Below are positions 3,754 to 20,337 of a stretch of 22,189 bases of DNA, one piece after another. Made by a program: the position numbers and the translations under genes. Numbering within the stretch: position 1 is the first letter of the stretch; every line of letters starts with the position of its first letter. The notes beneath the pieces are model-generated. The model was not told the origin of the DNA, did not search any database, and saw only the letters and a list, made by a program, of their open reading frames with translations. Source of the stretch: a virus; the IMG/VR virus record IMGVR_UViG_3300042507_004498, positions 1 to 22,189 of that record; one strand, written 5' to 3'.

Positions 3754-4341
3754 TTACATTCTTTCTAGGGTTATACCTACCTTATCTGCTGGTATATAAG
3801 CTGTTTGACAGATAATGGAAACATTATAACCAAACTCATCTAAACCAGGGTTCCATAAAGGTGATGGTAAAGGATAAGTAGCTCCGGCTGGATTAGAAGG
3901 TTGGGGTGAATTAGGATAATCTGGGTCTTTACCAACGAAATATTGAGCAGCATTAGTATTTATAACTTCATAATATGAAGTTTCATATAATATAACATCA
4001 CCAACTTGAGGTACTAAATTAGCACCATAAATAGTATCTTCGTTAAAGTCTTGAAGTTTATTTAAAAGATCATCTCTTAAAAATCTAAATGTAGGTTTCC
4101 AGCTAAAGCTTACACCCATTTCATCTGTGGGAAATTCTTGGTCTGGTAGATCGATTAGAGTATAAAGAAGAATAGGGCCATCATAAAATTTAGCCTCAGC
4201 TGCTTCTCCATACATGTTAAAATTAGTTTGAGTAAGTCTAAGTTTGTAGAATGCAGCTTGTTGAGAAATAATATTACCCATCAACTCTCTGTTGACGTAT
4301 CTGAACATTGAGATATCTCGTGATTGTCCAAATAATGCCAT
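3754..4341 (-). CDS. 14: gp14-like neck protein
   Basis: This 195-residue protein fits the gp14 neck family of marine T4-like phages. It has an N-terminal helical arm (FRYVNRELMGNIISQQAAFYKL), then KFYDGPILLYTLIDLPDQEF and a FRFLRDDLLNK segment. Next comes a beta domain, QVGDVILYETSYYEV, followed by QYFVGKDPDYPNSP, and a C-terminal SIICQTAYIPADKVGITLERM strand. The DGP-LL--L-D-PDQE and GD-I-Y---YYEV patterns are the strongest clues. Gp14 works with gp13 to close the packaged head and bind the tail. T4 gp14 is longer (about 256 aa). Its ATG overlaps the stop of the 113-aa gene by one base (TAATG), implying translational coupling with the gp13 operon. Confidence 0.75.
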   Translation of the reverse strand: MALFGQSRDISMFRYVNRELMGNIISQQAAFYKLRLTQTNFNMYGEAAEAKFYDGPILLYTLIDLPDQEFPTDEMGVSFSWKPTFRFLRDDLLNKLQDFNEDTIYGANLVPQVGDVILYETSYYEVINTNAAQYFVGKDPDYPNSPQPSNPAGATYPLPSPLWNPGLDEFGYNVSIICQTAYIPADKVGITLERM

Positions 4342-4682
4342 TATATTCTACGTAAAGTATTTAAGTCAAATTTTACTGCTATAACTCCAGGTATCTTTAA
4401 TTCATCACCTTCTCCAGATTTTGTGATTTGTTGTTTAAACTCTTCTACATCTTCTTCTGGTTTACCGGTTTTGCTCAAAAATTTGATATTGATTTTTGTG
4501 TATTCAATATTTTCTTTTTGAGGAAAATCTGGTGGGGTTATATTTTTTAAGGTAGTGATTTTTCTTAAAGCACGTATCTGATCTAATATATCACTAATGT
4601 TTTGGTCTGTATTAGACTTGATTATACCTTCCACCTCATAGGTGTTCATAATCTCAGTTAATATGTCTTGTAGCTTGATCAT
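4341..4682 (-). CDS. Small phage protein between gp13 and gp14, with a possible cleavable leader
   Basis: This 113-residue protein overlaps the gp13 gene by four bases (ATGA) and the gp14 gene by one. It begins MIKLQDILTE, almost identical to the MIKLIDILNE start of the ADP-ribosyltransferase-like protein and ending in an L-T-E site of the type T4 gp21 cuts. The remainder suggests a small alpha/beta fold: strand YEVEGIIKS, helix ISDILDQIRALRKI, strand TKINIKFL, helix EDVEEFKQQIT, then strand IPGVIAVKFD. This resembles a ferredoxin- or ACT-like arrangement seen in short proteins near the gp13/gp14 genes of marine T4-like phages. No function is established that I know of. Tight coupling to both neck genes argues for a role in head completion. 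Confidence 0.7.
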   Translation of the reverse strand: MIKLQDILTEIMNTYEVEGIIKSNTDQNISDILDQIRALRKITTLKNITPPDFPQKENIEYTKINIKFLSKTGKPEEDVEEFKQQITKSGEGDELKIPGVIAVKFDLNTLRRI

Positions 4683-5857
4683 CCTATATAAATTGTCATT
4701 GGAGTTTTATTTAACTCAGTTTGAGAAAAATCGGCTTCTGCTGCTCTTCTTTCTAGCATTGATTGGCGAGATGTTTGATCTAAATATTCTCTTAATCTTA
4801 CAATTAAAGCTTCTTTATCAGTAGCAGCAGATGCTGTTAAAGTGTCCCCATTTAAAGTTACTTCAGCGCCAGGGATAGGAATCTGTGAGTATTTGTTACG
4901 AACATATCCTAACATTTCTTTACAAAGTGCTAAAGTATATTCAAAAATCCAAGCGCGTCCTATTGAATTAATTTGGCTGTAAACTGGGTTAGCATAAGGG
5001 ACATTTGATACATTAGTAACAAGTCCAGCACCATTTTCTCCACTACCCGAAGCCAGTGAATTTTCTAAACGTTCATCTTTAAGTAAATATTGGAACCAAT
5101 AATGAGTACCTGTATCACCATCAGTTGGTACTGGGAATATTCTAAGTTTATTGTTTATAATCTGGAAAGTATATGCTGAAAATAAAATATCATTTCCTAG
5201 TTCTACTTCTTGAATGGCTGCTACGTTATATGATAAAGGAGTTATTAAATAATTATTAGCTGCTCCATATCCTGATACACCACCTAAAGCACCAAAAAAT
5301 CCACCCCAACCAGCTCCTAAACCAATACCACCACCATAATAATAGGTAGCAGAGGCAGGAACACCTTGATAAAATACTCGTTTGATTTCTAAATTGCTTC
5401 CTGAAATGCCGTTTTGTCTAGCCCATTCATCTAAATCATAGTCCTGGATGGAGGCAGTTAAAATAACTGAACCTGAGTACCAGTTAGTGTTTCCACCAGT
5501 TCCTGCTTCTTCTCCGTATTGTTCTGAAATACGGATAATATTACCCATGTTTGGAGTAATTTGGGTATTGTTTAAAACTGGAGTGGTAATGGGTAAACCT
5601 TCCAAGTTGAGCATGTTTTCTCTAACTTGGTAAGCATATAATTCATTACCATAAACTGTTACGGCTTGTTCAAATGCTGTGTAAAAATTAGTATCTTGTA
5701 ATTCAACGTTTTCAATAGGCCAACCTAAACGTCTAGCACAAAAATTAGCTACTTTAAGAGCATCTTGTTGGAATTGTAAATCATTATTATAAAACCCAAA
5801 AGGTACATATGTGGGGTTCCATACAGGATTACCATCGTATATAGGAATATTTGCCAT
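4679..5857 (-). CDS. 13: gp13-like neck protein
   Basis: This 392-residue protein matches the gp13 neck (head completion) pattern of marine T4-like phages. It has an N-terminal VWNPTYVPFGFYNNDLQFQQDA segment, FCARRLGWPIENVELQDTNFYTAFEQAVTVYGNELYAYQVRENML, and a C-terminal helical part with RNKYSQIPIPGAEVTLNGD, KEALIVRLREYLD and the end MTIYIG. It contains a Gly/Tyr-rich loop (about residues 172-200). Gp13 binds under the portal with gp14 after packaging. T4 gp13 is shorter (about 309 aa), so the glycine-rich insertion is extra here. It starts the overlapping 13-(113 aa)-14 set; a 6-base gap separates it from the 140-aa gene upstream. Confidence 0.75.
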   Translation of the reverse strand: MANIPIYDGNPVWNPTYVPFGFYNNDLQFQQDALKVANFCARRLGWPIENVELQDTNFYTAFEQAVTVYGNELYAYQVRENMLNLEGLPITTPVLNNTQITPNMGNIIRISEQYGEEAGTGGNTNWYSGSVILTASIQDYDLDEWARQNGISGSNLEIKRVFYQGVPASATYYYGGGIGLGAGWGGFFGALGGVSGYGAANNYLITPLSYNVAAIQEVELGNDILFSAYTFQIINNKLRIFPVPTDGDTGTHYWFQYLLKDERLENSLASGSGENGAGLVTNVSNVPYANPVYSQINSIGRAWIFEYTLALCKEMLGYVRNKYSQIPIPGAEVTLNGDTLTASAATDKEALIVRLREYLDQTSRQSMLERRAAEADFSQTELNKTPMTIYIG

Positions 5858-5863
5858 GATTTA

Positions 5864-6286
5864 TTAAGTTGTAGCTATAAAATATTCAACTTGAGCGGCT
5901 GCTCCTGAAGGAATTATAGAGATAGAATGTATATTATCTAAAGTAAAATCTGAAGTAGAAAGGCTACCAGTTGTTTGATTTGTAGATAATATAAATGAAC
6001 TTCCAGAAGATACTAAAAAAGAAAGACTTGTAGAAGAAGACACATATAATTGAATAGGAACTACAGAAAGATTTGATATTCTTCCATATTGAAAGCTACT
6101 TGTTACAAACTGACCAGCACCCGGTACATTACTTAATTTAAATATTTCGGTAATTGAACCTGAAGGGCAATTTAAATTTCGAGTATCTATATAATTAATA
6201 CTTGAAATTATTTGATTATAGGATTCTGCCTGGGTTTGCCCATTTAAAGTAATAGTTTCAGTGATATTTACTGTTAAGTCTGCCAT
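5864..6286 (-). CDS. Hypothetical beta-rich structural protein, 140 aa
   Basis: This 140-residue Ser/Thr/Ile-rich protein starts MADLTVNITETITLNG and ends AAAQVEYFIATT. Strand-like segments such as SFQYGRISNLSVVPIQLYVSS and FTLDNIHSISIIPSG alternate with short Ser/Gly loops, suggesting a beta-sandwich. There is no signal peptide, membrane segment or catalytic motif. It is separated from phoH by 30 bases carrying the recurring octamer and has an AAAAGG ribosome site close to the ATG. Because it directly precedes gp13, I infer a small virion or decoration protein. I do not recognise the family. Confidence 0.65.
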   Translation of the reverse strand: MADLTVNITETITLNGQTQAESYNQIISSINYIDTRNLNCPSGSITEIFKLSNVPGAGQFVTSSFQYGRISNLSVVPIQLYVSSSTSLSFLVSSGSSFILSTNQTTGSLSTSDFTLDNIHSISIIPSGAAAQVEYFIATT

Positions 6287-7147: not shown

Positions 7148-8899
7148 TTAAAGGCTGTTAAGGCCAGAAACGTAGATCTTACCATAGAATTCAGGACGAA
7201 GCATCTTCTTAGCGTAACGAGTCAAGAGACCTTTTCTTGGAGTGAAGGTTTCTGGATCGTAGATAAGAGGAGTCATGATCAACGGAATGTAAGGAGCAAA
7301 CACAGCACCAGCTTCCAAGAACTGAGTACCACGGAATCCCATAAGGATTGTGTTTTCAGTCATGTAAGGGTTTTTGTAAACTGTGTAGCGGCTGTTCAAT
7401 TGACCGGCTTTCTGTACACCAAATGCATACTCCATCTTGTCGGCAGAACCATCGCTGTTAGAAGCGAATCCTGGGATTGACTCGATTACAGTAGCAACTG
7501 TTGGAGAACATACTAAGAAGTTTGCACCACCACGTAGGGTTAATTGGTGAATCTTGTTAGAAAGTTTCTGCATCTTAGTACCAAGAGTTTGGAACCACTG
7601 GCCTTGAGTGTTGAAGAAACCTGTCTGTGAAGTTGAATCTGGGAATGCGAATCCGTTTGCAGAAGCATTGTAAACACCGTTGTTTAATACAGTCCAGTAT
7701 TCAGTACCAGCAGCTGCGTCTTCGATCAACATGTCTAGGATTTCGAGGTCGATTTCAAGAGAGATGTACTCACTCATGATGTTAGTAACCTCGGCTTCAG
7801 CGTCAAGAGCTTGGTAAGCATTCAAGTCTTGAGCGAATTCAGGTGTCCAAACTGCCTTTAGCTTCTTAGTCTTAGCTACGATAGCTTGAGATTGCATTTG
7901 GATGTTGATTTCTGGGATCACGATCTCAGTTGCGCTTTCAGCGTTAGGAACTGCGAATGCGTTTCCAGCTTCGAAATCACCTACGTTGTATGGGCTCATT
8001 TGAGTAGCCTTGTTGTAGAATACAGTAGCAAAAGTTCCAGCGTTTGAAGGATCTAATGTAGAAGAAGCTGTTACGTAGAAAGAAATTGTGCTGTTAGTGT
8101 AGTTGTAAGTAGTAAAGTTAGGAAGCAACGAAGAATTAGTAGCTAACGAACCTGTGGTAATAACAAATCCACGAACTGCGTCAGGATCAAAAGCAGTTAA
8201 TCGAGCTGTAGGAACTATAATCTCGTATACTTGACCAGCAGCAACTGAAGCTGACAAATCAGAATCATAGTTCAAATCAGCCCAAGTAGCATCAGCTATA
8301 GAACCAGTACCAGTAGCAACAGTTGGTAGAGTACCACCGTTCTCTGAACCTGTTAAAGGAACTGAAGCAGAGAATTGGTTAGTTGAGTATGTAAATCTAC
8401 CAGCACCATAAAGACCACCGTTGTTGTTCTCGCCTAAGTTATTAGGGTTAGTTGAGAATGGGTAGTTACCAGTAGCTGAACCAGTGTTACCATAAAGTGA
8501 CTGACCAGATGTAAATGGATTCTTAGTAGTTCCGTATTGGAAATCTAGGAAGAATACAAGACCAGAAGGAAGGTTCATTGGCTGAACAGAAACGAATTCC
8601 TTAGCAGCGATTTGTCCGAAGACCTTACGTACCAAAGGAAGAGCGATACCTGCCCATTCAGCACCTGTACCTACTGAGAAGTTACCGTAGCCTGAACCAC
8701 CACCAACTGATGATTGTTCTACTACAAGTTGTTTTGCTTGGTTTTCGAGGATAAGAGACATGTTGTTCTTGTCGGTTTCTGAACGAAGACCCTCAAGAAG
8801 ACCTGTCTTTTCCCACTTGGACGCTAAACGAGCAGCGTCAGACTGCATATTCTTCCATCCAGAAGAGGCAGACTCAAGAAGTTGTTGTACTTGTGACAT
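7148..8899 (-). CDS. 23: Major capsid protein (gp23)
   Basis: This 583-residue protein is the T4 gp23-type HK97-fold major capsid protein. The first 61 residues form a helical prohead leader that ends KQLVVE; cleavage after Glu61 would leave QSSVGGGSG as the mature N-terminus, matching the roughly 65-residue leader removed from T4 gp23. Recognisable blocks are EWAGIALPLVRKVFGQIAAKE, QPMNLPSGLVFFLDF, the long Ser/Thr/Gly-rich insertion (about residues 120-300), VVAKTKKLKAVWTPE-type residues, LRGGANFLVCSP, and the C-terminal TPLIYDPETFTPRKGLLTRYAKK. T4 gp23 is shorter (521 aa), the difference lying in the insertion. Codons are more biased (AAG, TTC, AAC frequent) than in neighbouring genes, as expected for very high expression. 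It shares a unit with the scaffold gene. Confidence 0.96.
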   Translation of the reverse strand: MSQVQQLLESASSGWKNMQSDAARLASKWEKTGLLEGLRSETDKNNMSLILENQAKQLVVEQSSVGGGSGYGNFSVGTGAEWAGIALPLVRKVFGQIAAKEFVSVQPMNLPSGLVFFLDFQYGTTKNPFTSGQSLYGNTGSATGNYPFSTNPNNLGENNNGGLYGAGRFTYSTNQFSASVPLTGSENGGTLPTVATGTGSIADATWADLNYDSDLSASVAAGQVYEIIVPTARLTAFDPDAVRGFVITTGSLATNSSLLPNFTTYNYTNSTISFYVTASSTLDPSNAGTFATVFYNKATQMSPYNVGDFEAGNAFAVPNAESATEIVIPEINIQMQSQAIVAKTKKLKAVWTPEFAQDLNAYQALDAEAEVTNIMSEYISLEIDLEILDMLIEDAAAGTEYWTVLNNGVYNASANGFAFPDSTSQTGFFNTQGQWFQTLGTKMQKLSNKIHQLTLRGGANFLVCSPTVATVIESIPGFASNSDGSADKMEYAFGVQKAGQLNSRYTVYKNPYMTENTILMGFRGTQFLEAGAVFAPYIPLIMTPLIYDPETFTPRKGLLTRYAKKMLRPEFYGKIYVSGLNSL

Positions 8900-8923: not shown

Positions 8924-10174
8924 TTATTTTTTAATTCCTGCAAGAACTTGCCATCTTGCAAATTGATCATTTACCTCAAGAATTGGTTTCTTTTCTGGAG
9001 CAATTCCTGCTGCTTTAGAGGCCATACCTCTTACTGATTCATTTATCGCTGGTTTAGTTTCCTTAACTGTAGATAATGTTTCGTAAATAAGTTTTGCGTC
9101 TTTTACAGAGGCAGCTTTATCAAAAGCTTCCAATACCTTTACTTTTTGACTTTCAGTTAAATTCTTAGCTCTGAAAATCTTGTTTGTGTAAAGAAGTTTA
9201 GCGTTTAGAAGTTTTACTTCTGAAAGAGTTGAAGCGAGTTCTTCAAGTTCTTGTCTCATTTTACCCATTTCTTCTTCTTTCATACCACCTGAAGCACCAC
9301 CACCAATGCCACGTAAGAAGTTTAGGACTTTCTTAGCTTTATCGCTGGTTTCAGCTTTTTTCTCTAGAGCGCTCATTAAAGCAGCTCCACCACCTGCAGT
9401 ACCTAGAAGACCAGCAATGGTTCCGATGATGATAGTAATTGGATCTACCACTTCGTTCATTTCATCTTCTTCTTCTTTTAGAAGTTCACCTTTTTCTTTA
9501 GCAGTTGATTTACGAGGTTTGTCTTTTGGATTCTTACCGTAGTAAGCTCTTTCAGTTACCATTTCCTCTTCATCTTCCATATCGATGTCGATGTCTTCTT
9601 CGTCTTCTTCGTCTTCGAATTTTTCACCGGCTTCGAGCTCACCAGCTCTAACCATGTCTTCGATTACGTCCTCAATTAAGTCCTTGAGTTCTTCTTCAGT
9701 CATGTCTTCAAGGTCGATTTCTTCGTCGCCCTCTTCACCTTCTTCTCCCTCTTCAGAGTCCATTTCCATTTCCTCTTCTTCGGCTTCGTTTAAGGTTTCT
9801 TCCATGTCTTCTTTTTCTCTCATTTCCTCATCGAGTTCGGCTAGGAGTTCTTCAAGATCCAATTCTTCTTCCATGTTTTTGTCACGCATTTTTTCGGTTT
9901 CGAGCTCTTCAGCATCATCACCTCTTAAACCACGTCTCATCACTGGATTAGACATTTTTTCTTCTAAGTCCTCACCGTAGTTCTCATCAGTCATCTCTTC
10001 GTACATATCATCCTCTTCTTCCATTTCCATTTCAGCTAATTTAGCTGCAAATTTCTCTTGCAAGTAAGGAGTAAATGCTTCCTCGAGAGCTGCTTTGGCA
10101 TTTGCGATAGCTGCTTCTTTAACAGATTTAGCATCAGCAATAGCCTCTTTCAATAGGTCTCTACTGTTTGACAT
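8924..10174 (-). CDS. 22: Prohead core scaffolding protein (gp22-like)
   Basis: I place the start at the ATG at 10174 (416 aa), preceded by TTGAGGAAA; the TTG three codons earlier is less likely. The N-terminus is helical with several possible protease sites (LLKE-A, SVKE-A, ALEE-A, YLQE-K). Residues 45-207 are extremely acidic (long Glu/Asp runs). A hydrophobic, Gly/Ala-rich stretch follows at about 243-270 (PITIIIGTIAGLLGTAGGG). The C-terminal LLNAKLLYTNKIFRAKNLTE and EAFDKAASVKDAKLIYETL are the conserved gp22 end. In T4, gp22 builds the core inside the prohead and is then degraded to peptides by gp21. At 416 aa it is longer than T4 gp22 (about 269 aa), chiefly through the acidic domain. 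Position 21-22-23 is as in T4. Confidence 0.9.
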   Translation of the reverse strand: MSNSRDLLKEAIADAKSVKEAAIANAKAALEEAFTPYLQEKFAAKLAEMEMEEEDDMYEEMTDENYGEDLEEKMSNPVMRRGLRGDDAEELETEKMRDKNMEEELDLEELLAELDEEMREKEDMEETLNEAEEEEMEMDSEEGEEGEEGDEEIDLEDMTEEELKDLIEDVIEDMVRAGELEAGEKFEDEEDEEDIDIDMEDEEEMVTERAYYGKNPKDKPRKSTAKEKGELLKEEEDEMNEVVDPITIIIGTIAGLLGTAGGGAALMSALEKKAETSDKAKKVLNFLRGIGGGASGGMKEEEMGKMRQELEELASTLSEVKLLNAKLLYTNKIFRAKNLTESQKVKVLEAFDKAASVKDAKLIYETLSTVKETKPAINESVRGMASKAAGIAPEKKPILEVNDQFARWQVLAGIKK

Positions 10175-10246
10175 TTTCCTCAAAATTTAGTTTGTGGGGT
10201 ACGGTTATTATCTTTCTGAACCGCAATAAGTGTTATACAAATCCCA

Positions 10247-10391: not shown

Positions 10392-11000
10392 TTATATGAT
10401 AGGACAAGTACCTTTAGAGCAAAGAATTTCTGTTAAAATGCTACTTACCTTTGCGTATCTATTTATTTGATTATATTCTTTTCCTTCTTTAACCAAGTGC
10501 ATAAATGAACCTGGGTTAGATGGGGTTGAAACAAAATCCCAACATAGTAATTCAAAATCGTCTTGTACCTCCATCATACCTTCTCCCATTGGCTTAAGTG
10601 AACCCATACCACGAGAAGATACACCTACTTGGACATTATTATCGATAAGTGCTTTTAAAATATTGCCGGATACTGTTGGTAAAATCTCGATTTTACCTAC
10701 GACATGATCGCCATCCCACCATATGTCACGAATAATGTGACATACGTTTTTTAAGTTAATTATAGACGAATCTGGATGGTCTAGTTCACCTGTGGCTCTG
10801 TTTTGTTTAACCACATCCATGTACTTGTCAATTTCTCTTTGCCATAAGTCTTTAGCATAGTATCTGCCGTTTCCGTTTTTTACTTGTGCTGTAGCTAAGA
10901 TACCTTCAACAATAGGATTTCCAGCTGGAGATTTAATACCTTCAGTTAGCTGAACAGGATTAACCTGGAACGATTGGGTTTCAATTAAAACTTGTTTCAT
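10392..11000 (-). CDS. 21: Prohead core protease (gp21)
   Basis: This 202-residue serine protease belongs to the T4 gp21 / herpesvirus assemblin-like clan. It contains ILATAQVKNGNGRYY, GELDHPDSSIINLKN with the catalytic His, and VGVSSRGMGSL with the catalytic Ser, then DFELLCWDFVSTPSNPGS. T4 gp21 is similar in length (about 212 aa). Putative sites recognised by the enzyme itself lie at both ends: LIE at 5-7, LTE at 18-20 and ILTE-I in the last 15 residues, consistent with self-processing. It cuts the scaffold, capsid and internal proteins after (L/I)-x-E inside the prohead. The ATG overlaps the preceding stop by one base (TAATG). The gene is followed by a strong terminator. Confidence 0.93.
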   Translation of the reverse strand: MKQVLIETQSFQVNPVQLTEGIKSPAGNPIVEGILATAQVKNGNGRYYAKDLWQREIDKYMDVVKQNRATGELDHPDSSIINLKNVCHIIRDIWWDGDHVVGKIEILPTVSGNILKALIDNNVQVGVSSRGMGSLKPMGEGMMEVQDDFELLCWDFVSTPSNPGSFMHLVKEGKEYNQINRYAKVSSILTEILCSKGTCPII

Positions 11001-11672: not shown

Positions 11673-11921
11673 TTATTTATTTAATAATTCTTCAATATCG
11701 TTTAAATAATCCATAATCAAATCTGTAGGTTTTACTACAGCATAAGATTCGGGTTTTTCTTTATAATAAGCTATTGTTTCGTCTTTTGCTCTATCAATAG
11801 CAGGATATAGGCTATTTAATCTTGATTCGATAGCTTTAAAAGCATCAATACGTTGATTTTGGAACTCTATTCTTTTAGGATCCGCCTCGTTTAATCTAGA
11901 TTTTAACTTGTACTTATACAT
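11673..11921 (-). CDS. Small head-region protein (possible gp67 analogue), 82 aa
   Basis: This 82-residue, highly charged helical protein starts MYKYKLKSRLNEADPKR; L-N-E at 10-12 is a candidate prohead protease site. The remainder (RIDAFKAIESRLNSLYPAID, then DYLNDIEELLNK) is predicted to be two or three helices with no Cys, membrane segment or catalytic motif. T4 gp67 is also about 80 residues, is cleaved by gp21, and lies just after the portal gene; the size and neighbourhood agree, but gp67 is strongly acidic and I see no direct sequence match. A core-protein role is therefore inference. The recurring octamer lies directly after the upstream stop, 3 bases from this ATG. Confidence 0.65.
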   Translation of the reverse strand: MYKYKLKSRLNEADPKRIEFQNQRIDAFKAIESRLNSLYPAIDRAKDETIAYYKEKPESYAVVKPTDLIMDYLNDIEELLNK

Positions 11922-19567: not shown

Positions 19568-19597
19568 TGAATATTAGGAATGGATTGGGTGGTCATG
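19568..19597 (-). repeat. Cassette-flanking direct repeat, downstream copy
   Basis: These 30 bases match 20308-20337 at 26 positions. On the minus strand both can be read as H-D-H-P-I-H-S-stop, but here that peptide follows no gene in frame: the ADP-ribosyltransferase-like gene ends across it in another frame. It looks like a leftover copy of the 3' end of the oxidoreductase gene. Confidence 0.8.
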
Positions 19598-20273
19598 ATT
19601 CAAGTTTTGAATTTATATATCGTTCTACCTCTATTGTTAATATATCGTATTTAGTATTTAATTTTTTATTAAAATATTTTATCATTTCATACTTAGGAAA
19701 ATCAATACTATACTCTATTTTTTCCTTAGTTATAATATCATCAATATATTGTTTAACATCATCATTTAAAGGTAAAGCTGCTTCAGTATAATTAACAAAT
19801 TTTTTACCTCTTCTTACTTTATCTGATACTTTTATAAAGGGATATTGATCAATCAAATTTTTTATAAAGTTTGGATTGTGTATAAATCCCTCTGTAGGAT
19901 TTATTCTTACTTCTATTATATAATCTATAATATTCTTAATATCTCCTTGTATTATTTCTTCCATTTCATCTTCAGATTCTTTATAATCAGGATAGTTAGA
20001 GTAATAATTATATGGAATAATTTTATATTTATTAGATAATTTATTCCCATCTATAGATATTCTAACAGTTTTAGTACCTGATCCTCCTACTCCCCCTATA
20101 TCTCCTAATTTATCTCTAGTTAGAGATACTGTTGGTGGTTTGTCTTTTTCAAATTTGTTACTTGCCTTTAATGTGTTTGTTTTTAAAATATCAAGTAATG
20201 CGGAGAAATTTGTAAAGTGATACAATGTACCTACTTGCTTTGCTTCGTTTAATATGTCTATTAATTTTATCAT
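19593..20273 (-). CDS. ADP-ribosyltransferase-like phage protein with candidate capsid-targeting leader
   Basis: I start this 226-aa protein at the ATG at 20273 (MIKLIDILNEAKQVG); the frame is open further upstream but that part overlaps the oxidoreductase end. Residues 1-10 end in L-N-E, a gp21-type site, like the leaders of T4 Alt and the internal proteins. The core has LYHFTNFSALLDILKTNTL (His19, Thr21), VSLTRDK (residues 49-55), KTVRISIDGNKLSNKYKIIPYNY, then EDEMEEIIQG with candidate catalytic Glu105/106. The YHxT start followed by a helix and a later S-x-T-R and Glu pattern resembles DarT/KptA-like and other ADP-ribosyltransferase folds. The family is common in marine T4-like phages without an assigned function, so the enzyme call is inference. 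The gene is bracketed by a 30-bp repeat, which points to recent insertion. Confidence 0.75.
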   Translation of the reverse strand: MIKLIDILNEAKQVGTLYHFTNFSALLDILKTNTLKASNKFEKDKPPTVSLTRDKLGDIGGVGGSGTKTVRISIDGNKLSNKYKIIPYNYYSNYPDYKESEDEMEEIIQGDIKNIIDYIIEVRINPTEGFIHNPNFIKNLIDQYPFIKVSDKVRRGKKFVNYTEAALPLNDDVKQYIDDIITKEKIEYSIDFPKYEMIKYFNKKLNTKYDILTIEVERYINSKLES

Positions 20274-20305: not shown

Positions 20306-20313
20306 TATAAATA
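20306..20313 (-). promoter_or_regulatory. Recurring intergenic octamer
   Basis: TATAAATA on the plus strand, directly abutting the oxidoreductase stop (TAG, 20314-20316) and about 32 bases upstream of the ADP-ribosyltransferase-like ATG. A second relaxed copy (AATAAATA) lies nearer that ATG. Confidence 0.45.
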
Positions 20314-20337
20314 CTATGAATGGATTGGGTGATCATG
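20308..20337 (-). repeat. Cassette-flanking direct repeat, upstream copy
   Basis: This copy forms the true 3' end of the oxidoreductase gene (last residues H-D-H-P-I-H-S and TAG). Its partner at 19568-19597 differs at four positions, three of which are silent if read as the same peptide and stop. Confidence 0.85.

Follow-up and report, generated by a model that had tools for sequence, protein, structure and literature searches.

The complete IMG/VR record IMGVR_UViG_3300042507_004498 (22,189 nucleotides, here called the window) carries on its minus strand a gene that joins a short leader of the capsid-targeting type to a predicted ADP-ribosyltransferase (ART) core. We describe this ART gene, the predicted protease site between leader and core, which is kept in nearly all homologues, and the occurrence of the same kind of leader on other genes of related phages. 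The ART gene is laid out as follows, a slash marking a predicted cut here and below.

19593 to 20273, minus strand: ART gene, leader plus ART-like protein of 226 residues, stop codon included
20244 to 20273, minus strand: capsid-targeting-type leader MIKLIDILNE, residues 1 to 10, with hydrophobic residues at 4, 7 and 8 and with E10 (register compared with T4 IPIII, PMC9026906)
20241 to 20246, minus strand: predicted prohead-protease cut E10/A11 (L8-N9-E10/A11), from homologue conservation
19899 to 20243, minus strand: predicted ART-fold core, residues 11 to 125 (AF2 models; VIA-align Z 11.1 to Tpt1 7yw4 and 8.5 to DarT 7omw)
20211 to 20225, minus strand: motif I, LYHFT, with invariant H19, pairing with IYHIT of DarT in the alignment
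20115 to 20129, minus strand: motif II, VSLTR, with R53 in 67 of 68 members of the family alignment
20025 to 20048, minus strand: GNKLSNKY motif, with G76, K78, S80 and Y83 invariant in the family alignment
19959 to 19967, minus strand: [E/Q]-x-E motif, here E103-M-E105, in which E105 is the predicted key glutamate (alignment, compared with DarT Q-x-E)
19596 to 19898, minus strand: C-terminal tail, residues 126 to 226, little conserved, with a low-confidence model past about residue 155 (AF2 and alignment)

The translation reads MIKLIDILNEAKQVGTLYHFT...VSLTRDK...GNKLSNKYKI..P...EDEMEEII. A first-pass annotation, made from the letters of the window, had placed the open reading frame at these coordinates and with this start; the strand, which it did not give, is minus. 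An alternative in-frame ATG at 20336, 21 codons upstream, overlaps the end of the neighboring gene, and since homologues start at or near MIKL we take the MIKL start as correct. Compared with an 84%-identical homologue (L011), the gene has a dN/dS of 0.39 (0.085/0.220) and is therefore under constraint. On the same strand, the window encodes a T4-type head module comprising the large terminase, the portal (phrog_213), an S77 prohead protease, a scaffold candidate and the major capsid protein (phrog_138). The nearest isolate is Flavobacterium phage immuto (61% identity in the terminase, 54% in the capsid protein), followed by Microcystis phage Mel-JY01. Because these are the closest isolates, the host probably lies in or near the Bacteroidota. 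The source is a T4-like phage, probably one of aquatic Bacteroidota-type bacteria. The earlier proposal of a phage from a host group other than that of T4 thus gains support, the nearest isolates being phages of Flavobacterium.

In T4 IPIII, a ten-residue leader is sufficient for packaging, residues 4 and 7 serving targeting and residues 8 and 10 processing, with L/I-x-E as the gp21 motif; an E10D change in IPIII stops processing and leaves targeting intact (PMC9026906). This register fits MIKLIDILNE through L4, I7, L8 and E10, so that the targeting positions, hydrophobic in T4, are L4 and I7 here. Our homologue scan ignored the leader: a core-only profile, with G[DN]K[LI]S[NE][KHN]Y as its sole pattern, returned 80 loci, and all but three rows of our 68-row alignment come from it. 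In nearly all of the 80 loci, xxE/[AGS]K[QN]x stands directly before G-x-LYH. Across the 68 aligned homologues, E10 is present in every row, P3 is L or I in 65 and P1' is A, G or S in 67, while P2 is free. The leaders ahead of this conserved site differ widely (MIKLxDILxE, MKTFKEYLLE, MITYFKIFE, MKKSELKQIIKEEIRKVLNE, MNRLLLLEKKLDRIENTLLRKFE and others). Divergent members that lack KQVG retain L/I-x-E behind a short leader, as in Mel-JY01 (MIKLKSLLQE/IISDRVWHLT) and in a 636-kb phage (MKYIKIFE/NFNSNIVYHFT). The leader and cut site that the first-pass annotation had picked out from this one protein are therefore a property of nearly the whole family. The genome scan gave a single match, on a contig of a metagenome-assembled genome. 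In Mel-JY01, a cultivated phage, three MIKL-led ART-like genes are clustered (L007, 6001 to 8443), the second one being cut short. A literature search found no published virion proteomics of immuto or Mel-JY01.

The ART assignment of the core is supported by structure prediction. The full-length AF2 model has a pLDDT of 78 and the core model (residues 11 to 160) a pLDDT of 83 and a pTM of 0.79; with both, structures of Tpt1/KptA and DarT rank first and other ARTs next. In VIA-align, the top matches of the core model are ARTs or ART-like folds: yeast Tpt1 (7yw4) aligns with a Z of 11.1 and an rmsd of 2.7 over 109 residues, KptA in its NAD+ complex (9ld6) with a Z of 9.0 and DarT with NAD+ (7omw) with a Z of 8.5. 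We thus predict with good confidence that the core has an ART fold, with Tpt1/KptA and DarT as the nearest structures, in line with the ART-like core that had been suggested from its motifs. Near-invariant positions in the alignment are H19, S50, R53, G76, K78, S80, Y83, P87 and E105, and position 103 is E or Q in 65 of 68 homologues. Known Tox-ART-HYD1 proteins are bacterial polymorphic toxins. Their signature is H, [RK], [FY], [DE] (PMC3482391), an order in which H19, R53, Y83 and E105 occur here, with a residue correspondence that we infer. The Tox-ART-HYD1 model (PF15633) matches 22 of the 68 family members (best E 1.3e-6), and its curated cutoff is passed by two (25.6 and 25.1 versus 25), while the window protein itself falls below detection. 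The Pfam DarT model (PF14487) matches four members weakly (best E 0.0081). DarT has a Q-x-E motif and R51 (PMC11281641), which by order and spacing may correspond to [E/Q]-x-E and R53.

Alt of T4 belongs to the R-S-E, or Alt/VIP2, clade of ARTs (PMC5512222). Since the motif I residue is histidine in 68 of 68 homologues, in place of the first-motif arginine of Alt/VIP2, the protein is not an Alt-type R-S-E enzyme; the signature H19-R53-Y83-[E/Q]103-x-E105 therefore places it on the H-Y-E side of the ARTs, as expected from the earlier description of an enzyme unrelated to Alt. The window protein matches none of the Alt families, and Alt is not among the listed fold matches, which does not exclude Alt likeness. 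A PADLOC search with the window protein gave no match, and a sequence search of the PDB gave nothing significant, only short matches to DarT motif I. The protein has one recognizable domain, whereas polyvalent proteins have at least two effector domains. Matches to a Pfam S1 domain (E 0.0019), to NCBIfam rpoE and to a PHROG DNA polymerase (residues 102 to 139, 103 to 134 and 186 to 220) were taken as chance because they are single, weak and short and are absent from the homologues.

The same type of site recurs on the head proteins of the window and on further genes, beginning with the protease that is the candidate for cutting it.

10392 to 11000, minus strand: prohead protease, gp21/peptidase S77 (PF03420 E 4.2e-27; phrog_207 E 1.5e-55), with its own VQLTE/G site at residue 20
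8924 to 10183, minus strand: gp22-type scaffold candidate, acidic, between the protease and major capsid genes, with the leader MSNSRDLLKE/AIADAK from a start at 10174
7148 to 8899, minus strand: major capsid protein gp23 (phrog_138 E 1.3e-66), with the leader MSQVQQLLE/SASSG
4341 to 4682, minus strand: second MIKL-type leader protein by register, MIKLQDILTE/IMNTYEV, 113 residues
17573 to 18340, minus strand: long-leader protein with a gp21-type site, MKISELKSAIREMIVSELNE/AEFQ, 255 residues
11000 to 11671, minus strand: head-cluster protein with a gp21-type site, MKTLQEQFNLIQE/GKGHKD
11673 to 11921, minus strand: head-cluster protein with a gp21-type site, MYKYKLKSRLNE/ADPKR

Cut-type sites are thus present in the window on the scaffold candidate, the major capsid protein, the protease and three further proteins; the MIKL-led protein at 4341 to 4682 lies among tail/neck-type genes and matches no family. 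The phage that encodes the ART also encodes a gp21/S77 protease; among 20 ART-family records, 12, including all nine IMG/VR records longer than 150 kb, have such a protease that passes the family cutoff. Over the fetched contigs and the window, 71 of 1,152 non-ART genes fit the strict register M..h..hh.E (h, hydrophobic); 1,000 runs with shuffled N-termini gave 2.5 on average and never more than 9. Related genes are counted separately here, and the events are hence not independent; the matches nonetheless span unrelated protein families. A looser h-x-E/[AGS] site within residues 7 to 26 is found on 153 of 1,154 genes, with 84 expected. T4 yields gp24 (MAKINELLRE/S) under the strict register, and lambda yields none. 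One locus (L006, 4013 to 7454) has seven consecutive MIKL-led genes, including an ART homologue; a 272-residue neighbor there (5186 to 6004), with an FHGT motif, is possibly a further ART. In another (L029, 8429 to 8887), a MIKL-led gene directly follows the ART, its core being Nudix-like by eye only.

T4 Alt, an RNA polymerase ADP-ribosyltransferase, is packaged in the head and injected, and is the worked example of such an ART; other cases are mostly predictions. It is likewise an ART of a T4-like phage with a short leader (MELITELFDE in NC_000866) that closes with a gp21-type site, but it has about 680 residues and belongs to the R-S-E clade, whereas the window protein has 226 residues and a histidine in motif I. 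The T4 internal proteins and gp24 also have leaders cut by the head protease, and internal-protein cargo is highly variable. Leader length, hydrophobic register and E10 are shared with these proteins; here, however, the bearers of the register are an ART family and numerous further proteins of distant T4-like phages, and processing is predicted. Packaging of phage ARTs was predicted earlier from fusions and gene context, for polyvalent proteins (PMC5512222) and head-packaged ARTs (PMC9503650), some of them in multidomain proteins; the packaging signal proposed here differs in being a cleavable leader, with gp21-type sites between modules. ART packaging itself is thus already known or predicted, and what is new is the ART clade, its presence in distant phages, the invariant cut site before exchangeable leaders and the precursor forms.

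We favor, with a probability of about 0.7, the reading that the ART protein is a head-packaged, protease-trimmed and injected effector. Sequence and models give the conserved leader pattern, the predicted fold, the conserved catalytic-type residues, the protease of the same genome and the cargo-type context; that the protein is packaged, cut, ejected and catalytically active, and that it has a target, we infer by analogy with T4. The ART gene would be expressed late and its product docked onto the prohead scaffold through residues 1 to 10; as the head matures, the gp21/S77-type protease of the phage itself would cut behind E10. What is left, the enzyme from A11 on, would be retained in the head and ejected with the DNA, and in the new host it would carry out NAD+-dependent ADP-ribosylation of a bacterial macromolecule early in infection. 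ART relatives act on DNA, RNA or proteins, and the fold does not tell which substrate is modified.

Several observations weigh against this reading. K12, Q13 and G15 are conserved as strongly as E10, and the E-x-KQVG stretch abuts the core, so its conservation could be partly structural. A test of whether the ART leader resembles the other leaders of its own contig was just moderately significant, the observed mean being reached or exceeded in 1 of 300 permutations; because MIKL-type leaders dominate, we keep it as modest support. As to the fold, the window protein matches no ART model in Pfam, and its Foldseek matches have modest E-values, between 1.4e-3 and 1.6e-3. The protein might thus be a genuine ART in which E-x-KQVG is the N-terminal edge of the fold and the leader is no capsid address, the enzyme being made and acting in the infected cell in host takeover, superinfection exclusion or nucleic-acid modification. 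Divergent ARTs without any leader would suit this explanation, such as JA13_138 of Dickeya phage JA13 (L009), which begins MNTLFHFTS and in whose record the S77 protease was not detected, as would the finding that many genes of the phage ADP-ribose network are early genes (PMC9503650). The JA13 homologue, leaderless in a record with no protease detected, also counts in favor of the head-packaged reading. We nevertheless consider it unlikely: the constraint on P3 and P1' around a free P2 is the pattern of a protease site, the leader register stands on 71 unrelated genes, Mel-JY01 retains its leader though KQVG is lost, and the head proteins of the window bear the same site.

It is also quite unlikely, in our estimate, that the packaged protein is a nucleic-acid enzyme of the Tpt1/KptA or DarT kind, active in RNA or DNA end processing or in base ADP-ribosylation, and not a modifier of host proteins. 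Tpt1/KptA and DarT are the closest solved folds, with NAD+ bound in several entries, and the Q-x-E motif and R51 of DarT are similar to [E/Q]-x-E and R53 here. Only the C-lobe of Tpt1 aligns, however; 16 residues lie upstream of LYH and the RNA-binding N-lobe is absent, identity over the aligned core is 9 to 28%, no toxin-antitoxin pairing as for DarT is seen, and DarT model matches are limited to the four weak ones given above, in a fold that does not specify its substrate. A degraded or inactive ART-fold protein with a structural or binding role in the head would be compatible with the variable C terminus and with an NAD binding that is only predicted, but near-invariant catalytic-type residues and the dN/dS of 0.39 make this very improbable.

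For the injected effector that we favor, multidomain homologues suggest a wider setting. In eight loci (L027, L028, L033, L039, L057, L066, L074 and L078), the ART lies inside proteins of about 840 to 1,320 residues, where x-x-E and KQVG immediately precede it (with D in place of A/G/S once, in L078) and further L/I-x-E/[AGS] sites lie in the linkers between domains. One or more of these precursors include Pfam regions of the cytidylyltransferase-like (NMN-adenylyltransferase) type, metallopeptidase-like, GNAT, NT5C nucleotidase and DUF6934, several below cutoff, with several domains per polypeptide in L027, L066 and other homologues. In L005, nucleotidyltransferase-like, peptidase-like and ART proteins are encoded by separate genes in this order, and immuto, which has leaders of the same types, encodes a 907-residue protein of the precursor type, annotated as a NadR-like enzyme. 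The eight precursors contain 36 [LI]xE[AGS] sites, versus 17.6 expected, about 8 of which are the family-defining KQVG-adjacent ones. Because the remaining 28 or so are below the maximum of 33 in 1,000 shuffles, the enrichment is weak; large control proteins also have a slight excess (150 versus 122), and we regard site enrichment in the precursors as suggestive only.

We give about even odds to a broader proposal. T4-like and jumbo phages that infect environmental bacteria would share a portable leader code, a short amphipathic segment followed by L/I-x-E/[AGS], and use it to load a large, interchangeable head arsenal (ARTs and NMN-adenylyltransferase-like, peptidase, acetyltransferase, nucleotidase and Nudix-like proteins), of which the ART described here would be one cargo. 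In some phages, these proteins would be joined in a single precursor, to be split by the head protease into separate effectors ahead of injection. If so, an ART of another clade would follow the delivery logic of Alt in distant phages, pointing to a general delivery route with an interchangeable enzyme. The conserved cut site would then offer a sequence-only rule to predict injected phage proteins. Related phages have dozens of further unstudied proteins with the same tag.

The surroundings of the ART gene fit such an exchange. Its GC content is 24%, versus 36% for the window, and it lies between two 28-nucleotide direct repeats that are 89% identical.

19570 to 19597, plus strand: direct repeat copy 1, at the 3' end of the ART gene
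20310 to 20337, plus strand: direct repeat copy 2, at the 3' end of a FAD-type oxidoreductase gene

The ART gene thus looks like an exchangeable cargo gene, inserted as an AT-rich segment between the repeats. In related loci the slot is either empty, the oxidoreductase gene being followed directly by the next conserved gene (L096 to L102 and L104), or filled by a different gene (L092 to L095, L103 and L105).
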